From a virus, in the IMG/VR virus record IMGVR_UViG_3300027851_000024, positions 1 through 64,000 of that record: 64,000 bases of DNA; one strand, written 5' to 3'. The notes beneath the pieces are model-generated. The model was given only the letters and a program-made list of their open reading frames with translations, was not told where the DNA came from and did not search any database. The position numbers and the translations under genes were made by a program. Positions 12,314 to 24,627 of this stretch are shown here, in pieces. The stretch's first letter is position 1; each line of letters begins with the position of its first letter.

Positions 12314-14071
12314 TTAATTTTCCTTTTTTAATAATGCAAAAAGTTGTTCCTCAGTTATTTGAGGAATGTTATAACGGGTTGCCTTTTCGATTTTGTTTCT
12401 TCCAGGATCATCTCCGACGACAAGATAGTTTGTCTCTCGTGTGACTCCGGAAGAGAACTCATATCCATAACCGTTCAAGATTTCGATCATAGCTTCTCTT
12501 GATTGGCTTAATGATCCGGTGATACAGTAAATTGCTTTTGCCTCAGTGGGGAGTGGAGCAAATGAAAAGTTTTTCATCTCCGTAATAGCATTGGTATAAA
12601 TACTCGCTGCGGTTACAAAGCTTTGTTTGGCCCGATCGGTTATGTGGATATTAATTTCTCCTGTCTTAAGATATTGGCACAAGCGCAAAGCTGACTTATA
12701 TGCTAATCCTGGCAGACCTAAACCTGATACAAAGTGTGCCATGTGGACTTGGTTATTCATACTGAATACTTGCTCAGCGATGTTGCTATAAATGGTTACA
12801 CCAATCTCATTTATGATGTCTGGCACAATGTCGTAGCTAAGTGGATCGAGTAAGGCCCAAGGCTTGGTTGACAGTACAGAATAACATTTTTCATTCTGGA
12901 GTAGCTTCTCTATAATGCCTTCTCCGACTCCGTCAATCTTTATGCCCTTTTGAGAGTAAAAGTAAGCAATGGATACGATGAGCTTGGCGATGCATGTTGG
13001 ACCATTACAGACAAGATGGACTCCTTCCCATTGCAGAATCTCAGTACATTTTGGACAATGTATTGGCAGAAGATTTTTGTATTCATTTAAATTTCTGGTT
13101 GTTAAAATCTTTGGAATTATTTCACCAGCCTTGCCAACAGAAATAGTTGATCCTGGCATGATTTGACGATCTTTAATCCACTGAGCGTTATTGCCAGTTA
13201 CTCTGTTATTAGTAGTTCCACAAAGCTCGATTGGCTCATATACAACTGTTGGTATTGCCCTTCCGAGTCGGCTTATGTTCCATTCGATATTTGTAACTTT
13301 GGTTTCTTTAACTTGGATTGGAGGCTTCCAGGCGATGCTCCAGTTATTGGTCTGTCCATTATTACCGGCGACTAAGCGAACTTTCTCGTCTGCAACCTTG
13401 ATCATCAGCCCATCCATTGGATAGATTTTTGACCAATTACTGTATGTCTCAAGCAGAAAATCTCCCATAGCTTCGAGGCTACCGGAGTAAGTATAGTCAG
13501 AAAACAGGCTGCCATAATTATGTGGTATGGCTGTCATCATGGCGCTTGGCTTATCATATTTGCGAGCTAGCCATCCAGCCACAACATTGCGAGGATTTGC
13601 TCCATAGGCTGGATTCCACTCGGCTAATGGGATGAGTATCTCAACTGCCTGAAAATGCTTAAGCTGGAAGGGAAACTTGATGTGAGGTAGCATGTGAGTT
13701 ATGTCTGTTCCACACCTGCCGTCGCCTTCAAGAGTTAATGCAATGCCTGAGTCTGTGAGTGTCACTACTGCTGCACAGCCATCATATTTTGGCTCGATCT
13801 TGAGGACGTAAGAGCCAAACCTTGTGAGGAATGGCTTAAGATCAGTCATGTTGAAAGCTTTGTTTGTCCCATAAATTGGTTGTTTATGCCAGGTTTTTCC
13901 TGTCAGGGATGCTCGGTTTTGTGCGGTATGGTAGAGAAGGTTATTATGTGGGTCGATGGCATAGAGTTGTTGCCAGAGCAAATCGTATTCGCTATCTGTC
14001 ATGAATGGTATGCCAGAAGCATAGGCCATATTTGCTTGGCGAATTTCTTCAATTAGTTGTTCTCTTGTCAT
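12314..14071 (-). CDS. ligA: NAD+-dependent DNA ligase
   Basis: 585 aa, shorter than bacterial LigA (about 670). Domain Ia: ASGIPFMTDSEYD near 18-30. Adenylation motif KYDG at 95-98 with Lys95 as nucleophile, and EGDGRCGTDIT as motif III. An OB-fold segment with IMPGSTISVGKAGEIIPK is followed by a four-Cys zinc finger (CPKC...CNGPTC), HhH-rich region and a C-terminal BRCT domain (IYCITGSLSQSREAMIEIL onward). Seals nicks in phage replication and recombination. Its start has a clean AAGGAG ribosome site and is preceded by the structured 500-nt leader region. Confidence 0.93.
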   Translation of the reverse strand: MTREQLIEEIRQANMAYASGIPFMTDSEYDLLWQQLYAIDPHNNLLYHTAQNRASLTGKTWHKQPIYGTNKAFNMTDLKPFLTRFGSYVLKIEPKYDGCAAVVTLTDSGIALTLEGDGRCGTDITHMLPHIKFPFQLKHFQAVEILIPLAEWNPAYGANPRNVVAGWLARKYDKPSAMMTAIPHNYGSLFSDYTYSGSLEAMGDFLLETYSNWSKIYPMDGLMIKVADEKVRLVAGNNGQTNNWSIAWKPPIQVKETKVTNIEWNISRLGRAIPTVVYEPIELCGTTNNRVTGNNAQWIKDRQIMPGSTISVGKAGEIIPKILTTRNLNEYKNLLPIHCPKCTEILQWEGVHLVCNGPTCIAKLIVSIAYFYSQKGIKIDGVGEGIIEKLLQNEKCYSVLSTKPWALLDPLSYDIVPDIINEIGVTIYSNIAEQVFSMNNQVHMAHFVSGLGLPGLAYKSALRLCQYLKTGEINIHITDRAKQSFVTAASIYTNAITEMKNFSFAPLPTEAKAIYCITGSLSQSREAMIEILNGYGYEFSSGVTRETNYLVVGDDPGRNKIEKATRYNIPQITEEQLFALLKKEN

Positions 14072-14102
14072 TGGTAATCTCCTTTAGAAAATTATTTTCA
14101 TT

Positions 14103-14230
14103 TAATAACTTTAAGCCTCAGATAAGTTTCTGTCTTTCACTATTGGCCAAGCAGCTACTTTGACAGGCTTATGACTCCTAAGTGATCAGCTTAGGTATGT
14201 TCTCAACACCTCTGAGGCTTAAAATTATTA
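14103..14230 (-). ncRNA. Candidate structured RNA A (leader of ligase)
   Basis: Outer helix: TAATAA plus TTAAGCCTCAGA at 14103-14122 pairs with TCTGAGGCTTAA plus TTATTA at 14211-14230. That is 18 bp interrupted only by a 2x2 internal loop. Inside are a helix TAAG/CTTA and CTGTC/GACAG (14123-14171) and a 6-bp hairpin CCTAAG/CTTAGG (14177-14195). On the minus strand it ends 32 nt before the ligase start codon. It matches no riboswitch or ribozyme consensus I know. Confidence 0.5.
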
Positions 14231-14252
14231 ACTGACCTAGAGCAATTAGGTT

Positions 14253-14283
14253 CATGGAGGATACAAAGTTCATATCCTCCATG
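14253..14283 (-). other. 11-bp perfect hairpin
   Basis: CATGGAGGATA / TATCCTCCATG with a 9-nt loop. No T-run follows on either strand, so it is not a classical terminator. It lies between structured element A and the 14320 hairpin. Confidence 0.6.
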
Positions 14284-14440
14284 TTCCTTAGCCCTTCGTT
14301 GCTTTTTGCATATCGGGCAATCCTATATAACTATAGGATCAATTTTCATTCCTACCCAGAGGCCAGAACTCTGTGGAATAAATAGTTAAAACAAATTATA
14401 TGGTGAAAACTATTTAATTGGTTCTCCTTTCGCTAGGTTC

Positions 14441-14460
14441 GTTCATTTTTGAACAGCAAG
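14441..14460 (+). repeat. Dispersed GTTCA-N4-TGAAC element, copy 1
   Basis: GTTCATTTTTGAACAGCAAG, in the structured gap upstream of ligase. The right flank CAGCAAGTT matches copy 4 in reverse orientation. Confidence 0.65.
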
Positions 14461-14473
14461 TTTTATTAGTTAA

Positions 14474-14567
14474 AAAGATATTCAGACCCGTATCGTATTT
14501 CAGGGCTTGTGAGTCAGCACCGCCATAGCTTGGTTCCCAAGACAGGCTATTAAATAGCAATATCTTT
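14474..14567 (-). ncRNA. Candidate structured RNA G (downstream of SSB-like gene)
   Basis: A 9-bp closing helix AAAGATATT (14474-14482) / AATATCTTT (14559-14567) encloses a nested stem near 14525-14550 (ATAGC/GCTAT with CTTGG-TTC-CCAAG inside). It starts 6 nt after the stop of the SSB-like gene on the leftward transcript. The architecture resembles element A at the other end of the same gap. Confidence 0.4.
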
Positions 14568-14572
14568 ATTAA

Positions 14573-14995
14573 TTAAACTACTCGAACAATCTCATTCCTC
14601 GGTGCTCCAATCTTAATCGGATTTCCTTCGTCGTCAGTACTCATGCCATCGTTATAATTCAGTTCAGCCGTAAACTCCAAGCCAACCAGATCAGATTCGT
14701 CAGTCTCCTGGTCGGGATCTAAGCCGAGAGCGCGAAGGAAATCTTTAACCATCCGCCACATCAAGTTGTTCTTATCTTCATCGTCGCCCTGATAGTCTTT
14801 GTAATTACCATACCAGAGTGTGTGGAAGATAGTAGATGCGTTGTCTTCGCCATCGATGTTGATAATCAACTGGCAGCCGTAACGGCCAGTTCGCTGAGAC
14901 TTGGTTTCTTTGACCTTGGTGATGCGGAGATCATACTCGCCAGCTTCTACGGGTGCCTTGTCGGGAATCTCACTCAGATTAGGAATCATTGCCAT
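14573..14995 (-). CDS. SSB-like / DUF669-type single-strand DNA-binding protein
   Basis: 140 aa. VEAGEYDLRITKVKETKSQR followed by QLIINIDGEDNASTIFHTLW is the strand pattern of small OB-fold phage proteins that accompany Sak4-type recombinases. The C-terminal half is acidic (DEDKNN, DQETDESD). No canonical DDIPF tail; the end is NEIVRVV. It is two genes downstream of the Sak4-like ATPase, supporting a role as the phage ssDNA-binding partner. The assignment is by pattern and context. Confidence 0.6.
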   Translation of the reverse strand: MAMIPNLSEIPDKAPVEAGEYDLRITKVKETKSQRTGRYGCQLIINIDGEDNASTIFHTLWYGNYKDYQGDDEDKNNLMWRMVKDFLRALGLDPDQETDESDLVGLEFTAELNYNDGMSTDDEGNPIKIGAPRNEIVRVV

Positions 14996-15011
14996 GGTAG
15001 TGCTCCTTGAA

Positions 15012-15062
15012 TTGTTTGTTTTAGTTTAGGTTAGTTTGGTTTAGTTTGGTTTGGGTTAGTTT
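15012..15062 (-). repeat. Degenerate TTTAG/TTTGG tract in intergenic leader
   Basis: The plus strand reads as about nine units of TTTAG, TTTGG or GGTTAG in a row; on the transcribed strand this is an AAACYAA-rich, unstructured stretch. It lies between the SSB-like start codon and the stop of 15061-15243. It may keep the ribosome-binding region unpaired or mark slipped-strand expansion. Confidence 0.6.
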
Positions 15063-15243
15063 ATTCGTTTGTTTGTTTTTTGTTTTTATCCTCCTTAACT
15101 TTGATTATCACATCAACCGAATCTTTTTCACAAGATTTGGCTGTTAATAAAGCTTGTAAAAGGCACTGCTTTTCAGGACTTTCATCAGCAACCTCAAAAG
15201 TTACTATGCCAGAATAATTATCTACTTCGATTCCAATCTTCAT
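15061..15243 (-). CDS. Small hypothetical protein
   Basis: 60 aa, acidic core and a charged C-terminus (VKEDKNKKQTNE). Strand-rich N-terminus (KIGIEVDNYSGIVTFEV). It is located between the Sak4-like ATPase and SSB-like genes, so a recombination accessory role is possible. Not recognised. Confidence 0.55.
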   Translation of the reverse strand: MKIGIEVDNYSGIVTFEVADESPEKQCLLQALLTAKSCEKDSVDVIIKVKEDKNKKQTNE

Positions 15244-15266
15244 AATTAAAACTCCTTTAATTAATC

Positions 15267-16058
15267 TTATTGAGGAATAATCGTCTTGCCTGCAAGATAA
15301 GCAGTTGCAAGCTGGTCCATCGTGATGCCTTCAACCTTAGGCATATCAAAAACCCTGGACTTAGCTTCAAATGCAAGTTTTTCTGTAAAGAAGATTTGCC
15401 GTTTAGTTCCTTGAGTTGTCAGCAGATATGCTTCATCAAAATCGGCAGCTAGCAGCTGACGAAACTGACCATTGACAGCGGGATATCTTGCTACTACTTC
15501 TTGGTCAGAATTCATGAGCGTATGAAGATGGACTGTGACTGCAACTGCACAAGGAAGCTCTTGGAGTGAACTAACTAATGTTGTCATCCAGTTCAAGAGC
15601 TGGCCCCAATGCGCAGGTGCCATTCCTAACTTCATGTCGATCTTTTTACCAATGCCGCTTGGAGTTATTCCTGACTTCTTTTCGATTTCATGAATCGCCT
15701 TCTTGTTGGCATTGGTCAAGCTGTCCAACACCAACATTCCGCCTTGTTCCTTCAGCCACTCAAAAAGCCCAGCTTTTTCATCCTCCTGGAAAGTATGCCA
15801 GAAATCTGAAAATAACAAATTATCATGAGAAAAATTATCCAGAGTAATATCAGTTCGATTCTTAGATATCTTCTCAATGGTCTTTTCACCTCCTTTGTCG
15901 AACATGTAGTAGTGCAAAGGTCCCTTGGTGTAGGTGGCTGTGAAGTGGGTTTTGCCAGATCCGGAATTGCCAGTTAGCAGGAATTTGAGATCAAAGATTC
16001 GCTTGCGTTCAGTTAGTTTGGTTTTGTTAAAACTTGGTTTTGCTTCTGATGGGTTCAT
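15267..16058 (-). CDS. Sak4-like RecA-fold ATPase (phage recombinase)
   Basis: 263 aa. Walker A GNSGSGKT at 30-37; Walker B GGMLVLDSLTN with Asp112. The MFDKGGEKTIEKI segment after Walker A and the conserved TVHLHTLMNSDQE region match the phage nucleotide-binding (AAA_24/Sak4) family. These RecA-core proteins promote annealing or strand exchange with a phage SSB. It neighbours the PD-(D/E)XK nuclease (16157) and the SSB-like gene (14573), a typical recombination module. Confidence 0.8.
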   Translation of the reverse strand: MNPSEAKPSFNKTKLTERKRIFDLKFLLTGNSGSGKTHFTATYTKGPLHYYMFDKGGEKTIEKISKNRTDITLDNFSHDNLLFSDFWHTFQEDEKAGLFEWLKEQGGMLVLDSLTNANKKAIHEIEKKSGITPSGIGKKIDMKLGMAPAHWGQLLNWMTTLVSSLQELPCAVAVTVHLHTLMNSDQEVVARYPAVNGQFRQLLAADFDEAYLLTTQGTKRQIFFTEKLAFEAKSRVFDMPKVEGITMDQLATAYLAGKTIIPQ

Positions 16059-16085
16059 TTAAAACTCCTTTAAATGAAATTAATC

Positions 16086-16154
16086 TTAGACTTCTACATG
16101 TTTCCATGTAATTCCTGCTTTTATCTTATAAATAGCTTTTCTATTTATTTTCAT
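16086..16154 (-). CDS. Possible 22-aa microprotein
   Basis: ATG at 16154 with a weak GAGG site 9 nt upstream, reading MKINRKAIYKIKAGITWKHV plus two residues. It starts 3 nt past the stop of the nuclease gene. Very AT-rich and basic. It may be a real coupled micro-ORF or chance. Confidence 0.25.
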   Translation of the reverse strand: MKINRKAIYKIKAGITWKHVEV

Positions 16155-16156
16155 TA

Positions 16157-17128
16157 TTATACCTCAGCTAATCTCCTTTTAGTTTCTAAATCATGTAAAT
16201 CAGGATTCCATTCAGAATGAATAAACCCTTGAGGCGCTTTTTCCATCCAGTGCAACGGATTGTTTCGGAGTCTGCAAAGATCGTAATATGGACAAACTGA
16301 GCTAAACGTAGTGCAAGCATAGCCTGGATTCCGGTGGAAGGATTGCAATACATCCGAGCGTTCCCGGCAGTTAATCTTATCTTCTTCGAGAAGGTTTAGG
16401 TTGTGCTGAATCTCATCGGCATAATGACAAAGGTTAGCCAAGAAGTGTTCGATTGCAGCAGAGCGTTTGGTAATTGTAATTGGTACAAAATCAATCTTGC
16501 TTTTCTGGCAAAGTGCTATGCGATAAGTAATGGTTGGAATCTTATCATAAAAAATTCTGCCAGCGGTTAGATAACCATCTGACTGGAATGACATTTCAAA
16601 GGTTTGAGGTGTTGTGGAGTAGATGGCCTTAGCGGTTTTGTGATCGAGAATATCGATGCCATCAGCACCATTTGAAAAGATCAGATCGATTCTACCTATA
16701 TAATTTGGAAGCTTTGAATCTTTGGTTGACAGATCAATACTGAATGGTGCTTCAACAGCGAGGATTGACCGATCTTTTACGTCAGCTACCAGGAAGCGGT
16801 CCCAATATGCTTTGTACATATTAGCAGCATGGCCAGGACTCTTGGGAAAGATTGCATCCTCGTTTTTCCAATAAGGCTCGCCGTCGAGCTTCCAGAGTTT
16901 GTTAAAGCTCCGAATTGAATGTTCAGTTGCTTCGAGAACAGATAGTGTTTGATTGTCTTTCAGAAGGTTGTACGTAGATTCGAGGCCGTAATGCCAGCAG
17001 GAGCCGAAGACAAGGTGAATGGATTGTCCAGCAGGCTTGAGGTTCAACACGTACTGGAATAAGAACCGCCTGGGACAGGTGAGATAAGTTGATAAAGCAG
17101 AGTAATCGATTTTTTCATGGAAATTCAT
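16157..17128 (-). CDS. RecB/Cas4-like PD-(D/E)XK nuclease
   Basis: 323 aa. Starts YSALSTYLTCPRRFLFQYVL (Cys and Tyr typical of Cas4/RecB-like nucleases). YIGRIDLIF supplies the first acidic residue and IDILDHKTA the D-x-K catalytic pair, near residues 141-175. C-terminal cysteines (YACTTFSSVCPYYDLCRL) with the N-terminal Cys are arranged like the 4Fe-4S cluster of Cas4/AddB-type enzymes. It would resect DNA ends for the adjacent Sak4-like recombinase. Its start is preceded by structured elements at 17149-17417. Confidence 0.82.
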   Translation of the reverse strand: MNFHEKIDYSALSTYLTCPRRFLFQYVLNLKPAGQSIHLVFGSCWHYGLESTYNLLKDNQTLSVLEATEHSIRSFNKLWKLDGEPYWKNEDAIFPKSPGHAANMYKAYWDRFLVADVKDRSILAVEAPFSIDLSTKDSKLPNYIGRIDLIFSNGADGIDILDHKTAKAIYSTTPQTFEMSFQSDGYLTAGRIFYDKIPTITYRIALCQKSKIDFVPITITKRSAAIEHFLANLCHYADEIQHNLNLLEEDKINCRERSDVLQSFHRNPGYACTTFSSVCPYYDLCRLRNNPLHWMEKAPQGFIHSEWNPDLHDLETKRRLAEV

Positions 17129-17432
17129 TTGAGAACCTTCTCATTGAATTTTAACCAAGTGGCCGACTCTGATAACGTCTTATCAGCGATACCTGTCAGT
17201 TCAGGTCAGATGGTGCGCATGGACTTTTCTATCCAATGCGTTCCCGGCACAAAAGAGTTGAAGGTTAAAAGAATCGCTGGGCTTCCACCAGCTCCCACTT
17301 CGCTTTAACGTATGCGTGTCCTATACGACCTGACTTTCCAGGTTGTCAGATGAGTGCTCGGCTACTTTCACCAGGGCGATCTAGTCGCTGCCTATTGCCG
17401 ATAGTTTTCTCGGACACACCCAATTTGCTAAA
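17129..17432 (-). other. 304-nt noncoding gap with two clustered multi-hairpin structures
   Basis: No credible gene. 17149-17270 forms a closed cloverleaf-like unit and 17276-17417 a second multi-hairpin unit (GCTGG/CCAGC at 17276-17292, CGTAT/ATACG at 17309-17327, ACCTG/CAGGT at 17328-17343, GCGA/TCGC near 17376-17388, CCGA/TCGG at 17398-17413, and a long-range GTGTCC/GGACAC 17315-17417). It is transcribed leftward as the leader of the nuclease gene. Confidence 0.7.
17149..17270 (-). ncRNA. Candidate structured RNA H1 (leader of RecB-like nuclease)
   Basis: Closing helix TTTTAACC (17149-17156) / GGTTAAAA (17263-17270). Inside are three hairpins: CTGATAA-CGTC-TTATCAG (17169-17186, 7 bp), ACCTG-TCAGTT-CAGGT (17191-17206) and CGCAT-GGA...TCC-A-ATGCG (about 17216-17240). 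A four-way-junction arrangement of this size, 20 nt from a start codon, suggests a regulatory RNA. No known family is recognised. Confidence 0.45.
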
Positions 17433-17795
17433 TTACCGATTGTTGAACTGAGCCAGGATGGCGTCACGAACTTCCGGAGGCAGATTGCCGAGAGCTTCCA
17501 GGGCTTTCTCTTCAGGAGTCTTAGTAATCCTCAGAGTCGGCTTCCAGTCGCTGAAGTCCTCGGCCAGGATGGCGTCGTCAGCATTGCTGAACTCACCATT
17601 ATCGTCCTTCTCTTCCAGTTTGCGCCGAACGACTGCCCTGAACGAAACCTTCAGCTGATTCTTAATCATGTTCAGTGCCAGGTCATCGCCAAGGCTCTGT
17701 ACCATCTCTTCGACAGTGCCGAGGTTCAGAACTGCGGGCTCGGTAACGGTGATCTCACGATTAGCCTGGTTTGAAACTACTTTGATCATGCTCAT
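17433..17795 (-). CDS. Hypothetical early protein, first gene of the recombination operon
   Basis: 120 aa, acidic. Starts MSMIKVVSNQANREITVTEP; the GGGAG ribosome site 7 nt upstream supports this ATG. C-terminus EALGNLPPEVRDAILAQF resembles the ends of three other early proteins. It is the first gene after the promoter at 17998-18026 and heads nuclease, Sak4-like and SSB-like genes, so it may be abundant and early. Function unknown. Confidence 0.65.
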   Translation of the reverse strand: MSMIKVVSNQANREITVTEPAVLNLGTVEEMVQSLGDDLALNMIKNQLKVSFRAVVRRKLEEKDDNGEFSNADDAILAEDFSDWKPTLRITKTPEEKALEALGNLPPEVRDAILAQFNNR

Positions 17796-24130: not shown

Positions 24131-24152
24131 GTTCATAAATGAACAGCCAAAC
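24131..24152 (+). repeat. Dispersed GTTCA-N4-TGAAC element, copy 2
   Basis: GTTCATAAATGAACAGCCAA followed by AC. It has a 14-bp inverted repeat plus the conserved right flank CAGCCARNC. In the leader of the 23882 gene. Other copies: 14441, 27694, 36850 (reverse) and 62151. Confidence 0.75.
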
Positions 24153-24207
24153 TGAAATTTCGACTGAACAAGATTGAGTGTAAGTTGAGGTGGTTATAAC
24201 TTGGATA

Positions 24208-24251
24208 CGACGAAGCTGACTGTGTGTTGTTACCAGTGGGTGACTTCGTCG
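24208..24251 (-). other. 8-bp stem with 28-nt loop
   Basis: CGACGAAG / CTTCGTCG flank a loop containing the complementary-looking TGACTG and GGGTGAC. It is noncoding, between the 34-aa membrane protein and the GTTCA element. No T-run, so terminator activity is unlikely; a regulatory hairpin is possible. Confidence 0.5.
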
Positions 24252-24261
24252 CCTGGCATGG

Positions 24262-24366
24262 TTACTGTCCAATCTGTTCGATGTAATTGATCAGGCCGTA
24301 CGTAATTAATATGAAGAACGTGGCAATTGCTAAGCGTTTAAAGAATGATAGTTTTTCAGTTTTCAT
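24262..24366 (-). CDS. 34-aa small membrane protein
   Basis: Reads MKTEKLSFFKRLAIATFFIL followed by ITYGLINYIEQIGQ: a basic N-terminus and one transmembrane helix. The ribosome site is weak (GTGAG). Its start lies 9 nt after the stop of the 50-aa gene upstream, fitting operon translation. Confidence 0.5.
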   Translation of the reverse strand: MKTEKLSFFKRLAIATFFILITYGLINYIEQIGQ

Positions 24367-24375
24367 GGCTATTTC

Positions 24376-24528
24376 TCACTGAAGGTTAATCTTAACTCCG
24401 ACGCCTTCTGCAATTACGATGCCCATGGCAATTGCATCGTAAACTGCATCCTCGCCGCATAGGCAAATCATTGAATCGAGATAATCATGTTTGAACGGGT
24501 CGAGTAGTAAGAAGTCCAGAATGTCCAT
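24376..24528 (-). CDS. 50-aa acidic hypothetical protein
   Basis: Starts MDILDFLLLDPFKHDYLDSM and ends VGVKINLQ, with a clean AAGGAGC site 5 nt before the ATG. Contains ICLCGEDAVYDAIAMGIVI. Function unknown. Confidence 0.6.
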   Translation of the reverse strand: MDILDFLLLDPFKHDYLDSMICLCGEDAVYDAIAMGIVIAEGVGVKINLQ

Positions 24529-24572
24529 TGTTTGCTCCTTGGTTAGGGTTATCTGTCTTGCTAACTCAACAA

Positions 24573-24609
24573 CAGGACAAAGACTTTACACTTTCCAATC
24601 TTTGTCCTG
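24573..24609 (-). other. 10-bp perfect inverted repeat
   Basis: CAGGACAAAG / CTTTGTCCTG with a 17-nt loop in the 99-nt gap between the 50-aa gene and 24628-24960. There is no T-run after it on the leftward transcript. Possible mRNA-processing or attenuation hairpin. Confidence 0.55.
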
Positions 24610-24627
24610 ATGTTCAGGTAGCCAGAT

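Follow-up and report, generated by a model that had tools for sequence, protein, structure and literature searches.

What are the long inverted repeats in two non-coding gaps of a phage early operon, and do they serve the neighboring genes or act elsewhere in the cell? The gaps lie in a window of 64,000 nt, the stretch analyzed here, within the 65-kb virus record IMGVR_UViG_3300027851_000024. The first-pass annotation had placed a chain of RNA-like elements in both gaps. Inverted repeats are present there at the coordinates it gave, and the arms of three elements (E, C and A) were verified. Non-coding stretches in the early operons of phages usually receive little attention; these two contain several structured RNA families that show covariation and had not been described. 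Pairing in elements A, D and B is under selection, as compensatory changes exceed shuffled and slid controls, and the gaps contain replaceable modules at fixed sites. The genes flanking both gaps are all on the minus strand, so any gap transcript would be of the minus strand. The gaps and their elements are as follows.

14072-14572: gap 1, between the single-strand-DNA-binding (SSB)-like gene and the NAD-dependent ligase gene.
14098-14235, minus strand: element E, a 25-nt near-perfect closing helix around further hairpins.
14246-14388, minus strand: element D, a row of hairpins.
14437-14467, minus strand: remnant of hairpin H, of which the window has the 5' half only (in relatives e.g. UUGCUGUUCACUUA.../...UAAGUGAACAGCAA).
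14474-14567, minus strand: element C, a 9-bp closed unit with arms at 14474-14482/14559-14567.
17129-17432: gap 2, between the gene for a 120-aa protein and the RecB-like exonuclease gene.
17130-17143, minus strand: small hairpin TGAGAAGGTTCTCA, centered on AAGG, the ribosome-binding site of the RecB-like gene.
17162-17249, minus strand: core of element A, an 88-nt four-way unit with GCCG/CGGC closing three hairpins.
17279-17349, minus strand: element B, the conserved half of a multi-hairpin unit, with hairpins ACCUG/CAGGU, CGUAU/AUACG and GCUGG/CCAGC.

For comparison, IMG/VR holds many contigs whose ligase and nuclease are 85-93% identical to those of the window (sister phages, labeled L0xx). 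The covariation test that had been proposed for the stems gave compensatory changes in A, D and B. For A, seven distinct sequences yield 23 pairs, with 95.6% of cells paired and 7 pairs changed on both sides. None of 500 shuffles scored as high, and sliding the partners by 1-3 columns abolished the signal. The last hairpin of A occurs as CCAGCAU/AUGUUGG, CUAACAU/AUGUUAG, CUGAUAA/UUAUCAG and CCAGAAA/UUUCUGG, all around an invariant GACG loop, and most sisters share an identical 87-nt A core, including its loops. Among the matches listed for a loose pattern, which came from many contigs, inspection left only this phage group. For D, four sequences yield 33 pairs with 89.8% of cells paired and 8 pairs changed on both sides, a score matched by 0 of 500 shuffles. 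Its hairpins are CAGAG-UUCUGGC-CUCUG, GAUCCUAUA/UAUAGGAUU, GCCC/GGGC and the 11-bp CAUGGAGGAUA/UAUCCUCCAUG. For B, which has homologues of 92-93% identity in L008 and L022 and a partial one in L005, four sequences over 17279-17349 yield 15 pairs, 100% paired, with 4 changed on both sides. A and D are almost certainly genuine, selected RNA structures. Coding readings were dropped for A, where one extra base in the window breaks the frame, and for B, where some relatives have an open frame (...KAKWELVEAQ.FF) and the hairpin changes are compensatory. In the relatives L005 and L034, variants of the small hairpin (GAGAGGATTTCTC type) stand ahead of other cargo genes.

Folding was scored as z against dinucleotide shuffles on both strands, given here as minus/plus. 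E (-3.8/-6.1), D (-5.9/-5.8 for the stretch 14236-14470) and A with its outer helix (-4.0/-2.7) fold beyond chance, while C (-1.25/-1.26) and the full multi-hairpin unit at 17276-17417 (-0.6/-1.8) do not. The first-pass annotation is modified in several ways. A had been drawn as an element closed by 8 bp at 17149-17270 (arms 17149-17156/17263-17270). It is present and folds, but relatives do not keep the outer helix as such; what they conserve is the 88-nt core. The multi-hairpin unit, predicted as a whole, holds for the half at 17279-17349, which is supported by its compensatory changes despite the weak fold. The 9-bp arms predicted for C are there, but its z is -1.25 and no homologue was found. 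E, described as closed by 18 bp at 14103-14230, is present, with longer arms than proposed (25 nt, 92% complementary, 14098-14122/14211-14235).

One inner hairpin of E has a 7-nt loop (CCUAAG-CUGAUCA-CUUAGG). In its single homologue, from L025, both sides have changed in 4 of 25 pairs, and 98% of cells are paired. This is suggestive only, because it comes from one homologue and 33 of 500 shuffles score as well. E is probably a real RNA structure; its helix is long enough that it may be an RNase III site or mRNA processing signal. Further searches found no homologues of E or D beyond the contigs already in the relative set. The E copy of L025 is inverted, in line with that contig's own SSB gene; at the contig end (L025:1-1190) there is an apparent inverted fold-back joined within a cargo gene, probably an assembly artefact. 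Hairpin H is complete in nearly all relatives, with a stem of ~14 bp, z of -7 to -9 and varied stem sequence; in L008, L007, L020, L030 and L027 it lies between the SSB and ligase genes.

Gap 1 as a whole has a z of about -5. Gap 2 as a whole (-0.6/-2.05) is not beyond chance on the coding strand, and the remaining gaps of the window lie mostly between -1.7 and +1.8. A further early gap (24137-24627, minus strand) has a long hairpin (CATCAGGACAAAGA...TCTTTGTCCTGTTG), a minus-strand z of -3.4 and small open frames as well.

Folding of the helices is about as good on one strand as on the other. This, with recombination genes as neighbors, would suit inverted repeats acting as single-stranded DNA structures, as signals for replication or recombination. 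Such a DNA-level role is very unlikely. The helix cells hold 16 G-U against 6 A-C pairs, favoring the mRNA strand, which is weak evidence because the helices were drawn on that strand. Furthermore, the elements are intergenic and run along the direction of transcription, and complete tRNA frames in the gaps of relatives (below) mean RNA.

Several known classes were searched for. The Rfam 15 covariance models gave nothing at gathering score across the entire window, with one sub-threshold chance match in the region, and ARAGORN found no tRNA within the window. This agrees with the first-pass annotation, which recognized no riboswitch, tRNA or ribozyme. It had proposed a structured RNA family; the elements are phage-encoded structured RNAs in no described family, but they are not one family. 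None of the window elements has the tRNA set of 7-bp acceptor, D-arm, anticodon arm and T-arm with a TTCRA loop. Intrinsic terminators (GC-rich hairpin plus U run) numbered 4, against 3.3 expected from shuffles. The only terminator-like site on the coding strand within the elements is the last hairpin of B (17276-17292), with none at the closing helix of E or in D. Terminator or promoter readings were dropped, since counts equal shuffles. Tandem repeats with pseudoknots beside a toxin gene, as in the type III antitoxin ToxI, were looked for, and no such repeats occur in the region. The neighbors tested are DNA-metabolism proteins or have no assigned function, and a phage-borne ToxI mimic lacking a toxin gene is possible.

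The genes around the gaps are the following.

12314-14071, minus strand: NAD-dependent DNA ligase, downstream of gap 1.
14573-14995, minus strand: SSB-like protein (phrog_378, weak match), upstream of gap 1.
16157-17128, minus strand: RecB-like PD-(D/E)XK exonuclease, downstream of gap 2.
17433-17795, minus strand: conserved 120-aa protein, upstream of gap 2.

Early genes lie on the minus strand up to ~27 kb and late genes on the plus strand. Terminase and portal genes indicate a tailed phage. No close DNA-level relative of the window was found in the phage collection. The nearest large terminases, from EBPR podovirus 1 and Chlorobiaceae phage CV-1-33, are 51-53% identical, too distant for a host to be named.

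A and E end about 27-33 nt ahead of start codons (27 nt from E to that of the ligase). This position, the junction-type folds and the conserved loops would fit riboswitch-like sensors for the downstream genes. The nuclease gene stands directly behind A in the window, L007, L008 and L020. However, in nine other relatives (L005, L006, L011, L016, L017, L019, L022, L023 and L034) there are other genes or ~120-1160 nt between A and the nuclease. An identical A core with a varying gene behind it is hard to reconcile with a private nuclease leader. The fixed ligase and nuclease leaders of the first-pass annotation were not borne out, because the genes behind A differ and, in L005, an unrelated element has taken the place of the one before the ligase. 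Sensors are also highly improbable given the absence of an Rfam match and terminator-like sites no commoner than in shuffles.

The gaps themselves turn over rapidly. Close sisters have orthologous gaps of anything between 27 and 1444 nt, and the distant L032 has one of 2843 nt; the gaps contain small genes and non-coding modules. Between the window and its nearest relative, L005, DNA identity is 90% in the SSB gene and 86% at the ligase start, while in the intervening gap it is 26% (22% when shuffled). Closed multi-hairpin elements with unrelated interiors precede the ligase in L005 (z -4.0), L011 (-4.7) and L031 (-4.3), values somewhat flattered because the boundaries were chosen by the closing helices. 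A whole RNA is replaced at sites whose neighboring genes stay nearly unchanged.

Most sisters have a tRNA-shaped RNA immediately upstream of A. Its acceptor is 7 bp long, its D-arm (TGGCGGAATTGGTAGACGC) is of the tRNA-Leu type and its T-arm (GCAGGTTCGAATCCTGC) is perfect, but an unrelated payload of 45 to ~120 nt replaces the anticodon arm. Acceptor, D-arm and T-arm are all present by tRNA criteria. L007, L019 and L025 have similar frames in their ligase gap. Four sisters have the acceptor GTAGTGG/CCACTAC in common; identity among them is 93-98% in the DNA downstream and 21-36% in the payload. One payload is common to L020 and L023, at two different sites and with different acceptors. A 16-nt exact match to universal 23S rRNA (AGTAGCGGCGAGCGAA) is common to the framed RNAs of L007 (6879-7994) and L019 (7098-7994); its surroundings in L019 resemble a hairpin. 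The framed RNA at L016:3676-4280 has a hairpin-sized insert in the D-loop as well, so a frame can take inserts at more than one position. In the gap before the nuclease of L017 (1069-2512), a tRNA 3' half (CTTGCAGTCATAGGTTCAATTCCTATTCTTGCCTCCA) lies ~40 nt upstream of the matching 5' half (GGCAAGGTAACTCAGTGGTAGAGTGGCAAG), an order resembling a circularly permuted tRNA gene.

The tRNA frame recurs, with payloads swapped, in dozens of unrelated viral contigs. With the payload set to 50-80 nt, a scan of IMG/VR found 78 loci; a stricter pattern found 2 loci in 84,980 prokaryote genomes. In 52 distinct loci the D-arm sets the frame to its canonical position; acceptor pairing is 7/7 in 49 of these and 6/7 in the other three, whereas permuting the partners gives 7/7 in 3.3%. 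The gene that follows points the same way as the frame in 45 of 49. A canonical anticodon arm (5 bp, 7-nt loop, U33) was sought in 36 frames, and just 2 have at least 4/5 pairs plus U33 at the canonical offset. ARAGORN made a call at 1 of 67 framed loci, a tRNA-Arg on a different stretch, and reported no tRNA in most relatives. In nine relatives, the only Rfam matches were tRNAs, one at L030 and one at L020, the latter with its anticodon arm replaced. An isolated phage, Bacteroides phage BS-TP2, carries a framed RNA within an unannotated gap that separates its NinG gene from its DUF2303 gene. Between it and its relative L202 the flanks are 98% and 87% identical and the payload is unrelated.

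A variable region littered with decayed tRNA genes and the scars of recombination would account for the high turnover, for the lack of ARAGORN tRNAs in the window and most relatives, and for payloads that are little structured by themselves. Such functionless debris is very improbable. The compensatory changes, the perfect acceptors and the identity of A across many genomes contradict it for A, D and B as well as for the tRNA frames. It could hold for C.

We consider, at a probability of roughly 40%, that the gaps form a region of interchangeable cassettes for small structured RNAs, most likely trans-acting decoys against host RNA-targeting defense. Cassette sites in the early replication/recombination operon would carry small structured non-coding RNAs, co-transcribed with the operon. 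Host enzymes may then free them, RNase P/Z acting on the tRNA frames and RNase III on long closing helices such as that of E. The freed RNAs would act in trans as decoys or competitors, occupying host proteins that bind or cut RNA in defense, and payloads may be swapped because hosts differ in those proteins. Decoys against host defense, already suggested in the first-pass annotation, are possible and are favored by payload swapping.

The main rival is cis-acting mRNA processing, which is quite possible. Here, structures and frames would be cut by RNase III and RNase P/Z, separating or stabilizing early messages or tuning translation, much like the early mRNA of phage T7, and the interiors would be irrelevant. 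The intergenic, co-directional placement, the long closing helix of E, the Shine-Dalgarno sequence within a hairpin before the nuclease gene, and tRNA frames retaining the parts that RNase P reads are all consistent with it. However, irrelevant interiors would drift at the pace of their flanks; the payloads are at random identity between flanks of 87-98%, so they were replaced. Replacement rather than drift suggests that the interior matters and points to diversifying selection, and is the main reason for preferring decoys in trans. In addition, the identity of the 87-nt A core in most sisters, loops too, exceeds the needs of a cleavage site.

Several points weigh against trans-acting decoys. 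No target was found for them. The window has no tRNA frame and holds A and B of the chain with no tRNA-framed member, so its elements are tied to the framed class by position and shared habit, not by homology. The payloads show little structure of their own, and none is antisense to its own locus beyond shuffles. Mimicry of rRNA by gaps or payloads was rejected, as shuffles score the same or higher. Finally, element C is unsupported, and the covariation of E, from two sequences, is suggestive.

On a broader reading, less likely than not, phages have a general design for trans-acting RNAs, in which a conserved frame, either a tRNA elbow plus acceptor or a closing helix with its junction, displays payloads exchanged among related phages to match host defenses. 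If true, it would be an RNA counterpart of protein anti-defense islands, largely missed by tRNA finders and Rfam scans.

Known systems resemble parts of this arrangement. The early mRNA of phage T7 has RNase III sites between early genes, which are likewise hairpins on the mRNA strand. Our elements differ in being multibranched units with invariant loops and junctions, and in their wholesale replacement between sisters. In tmRNA, other RNA also replaces the anticodon arm of a tRNA frame, but the framed payloads are far shorter, and neither ARAGORN nor Rfam reports a tmRNA. The bacterial Y RNA YrlA, associated with Rsr, is a non-coding RNA with a tRNA-like domain and has been suggested as a possible competitive inhibitor of anticodon nuclease (PMC7790460), which would be a case of blocking rather than replacing. 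It differs in being host-encoded with Rsr/Ro60, and Rfam Y RNA matches are absent in the scanned phage loci. The phage tRNAs that evade retron-Eco7, PrrC and PARIS are also tRNA-shaped phage RNAs set against tRNA-targeting defense (PMC11555353). Those tRNAs are intact, whereas a canonical anticodon arm is missing from the present frames, and no tRNA occurs in the window. Phage tRNAs evading retron-Eco7 require their anticodon for rescue (PMC11555353), so the frames are not simple replacement tRNAs.

A further likeness is to stable RNAs C and D of phage T4 (rnaC 139 nt, rnaD 119 nt; AF158101), phage-encoded stable RNAs annotated without function. T4 rnaC has a canonical T-arm (CCGGGUUCGAAUCCCGG) and a 3' acceptor strand, with long hairpins replacing the normal tRNA body; the window elements have no T-arm. 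We saw no sequence relation to either T4 RNA, and both are located within a cluster of tRNAs rather than between genes for replication. Odd tRNA-like stable RNAs of phages have thus been known since T4 RNA C, while E, D, A, B and the frames were previously undescribed. The open-access literature searched, with subscription papers outside the search, holds no description of tRNA-framed phage RNAs lacking an anticodon. With these families in hand, the old question of what T4 RNA C and other unusual stable RNAs of phages do becomes directly testable.

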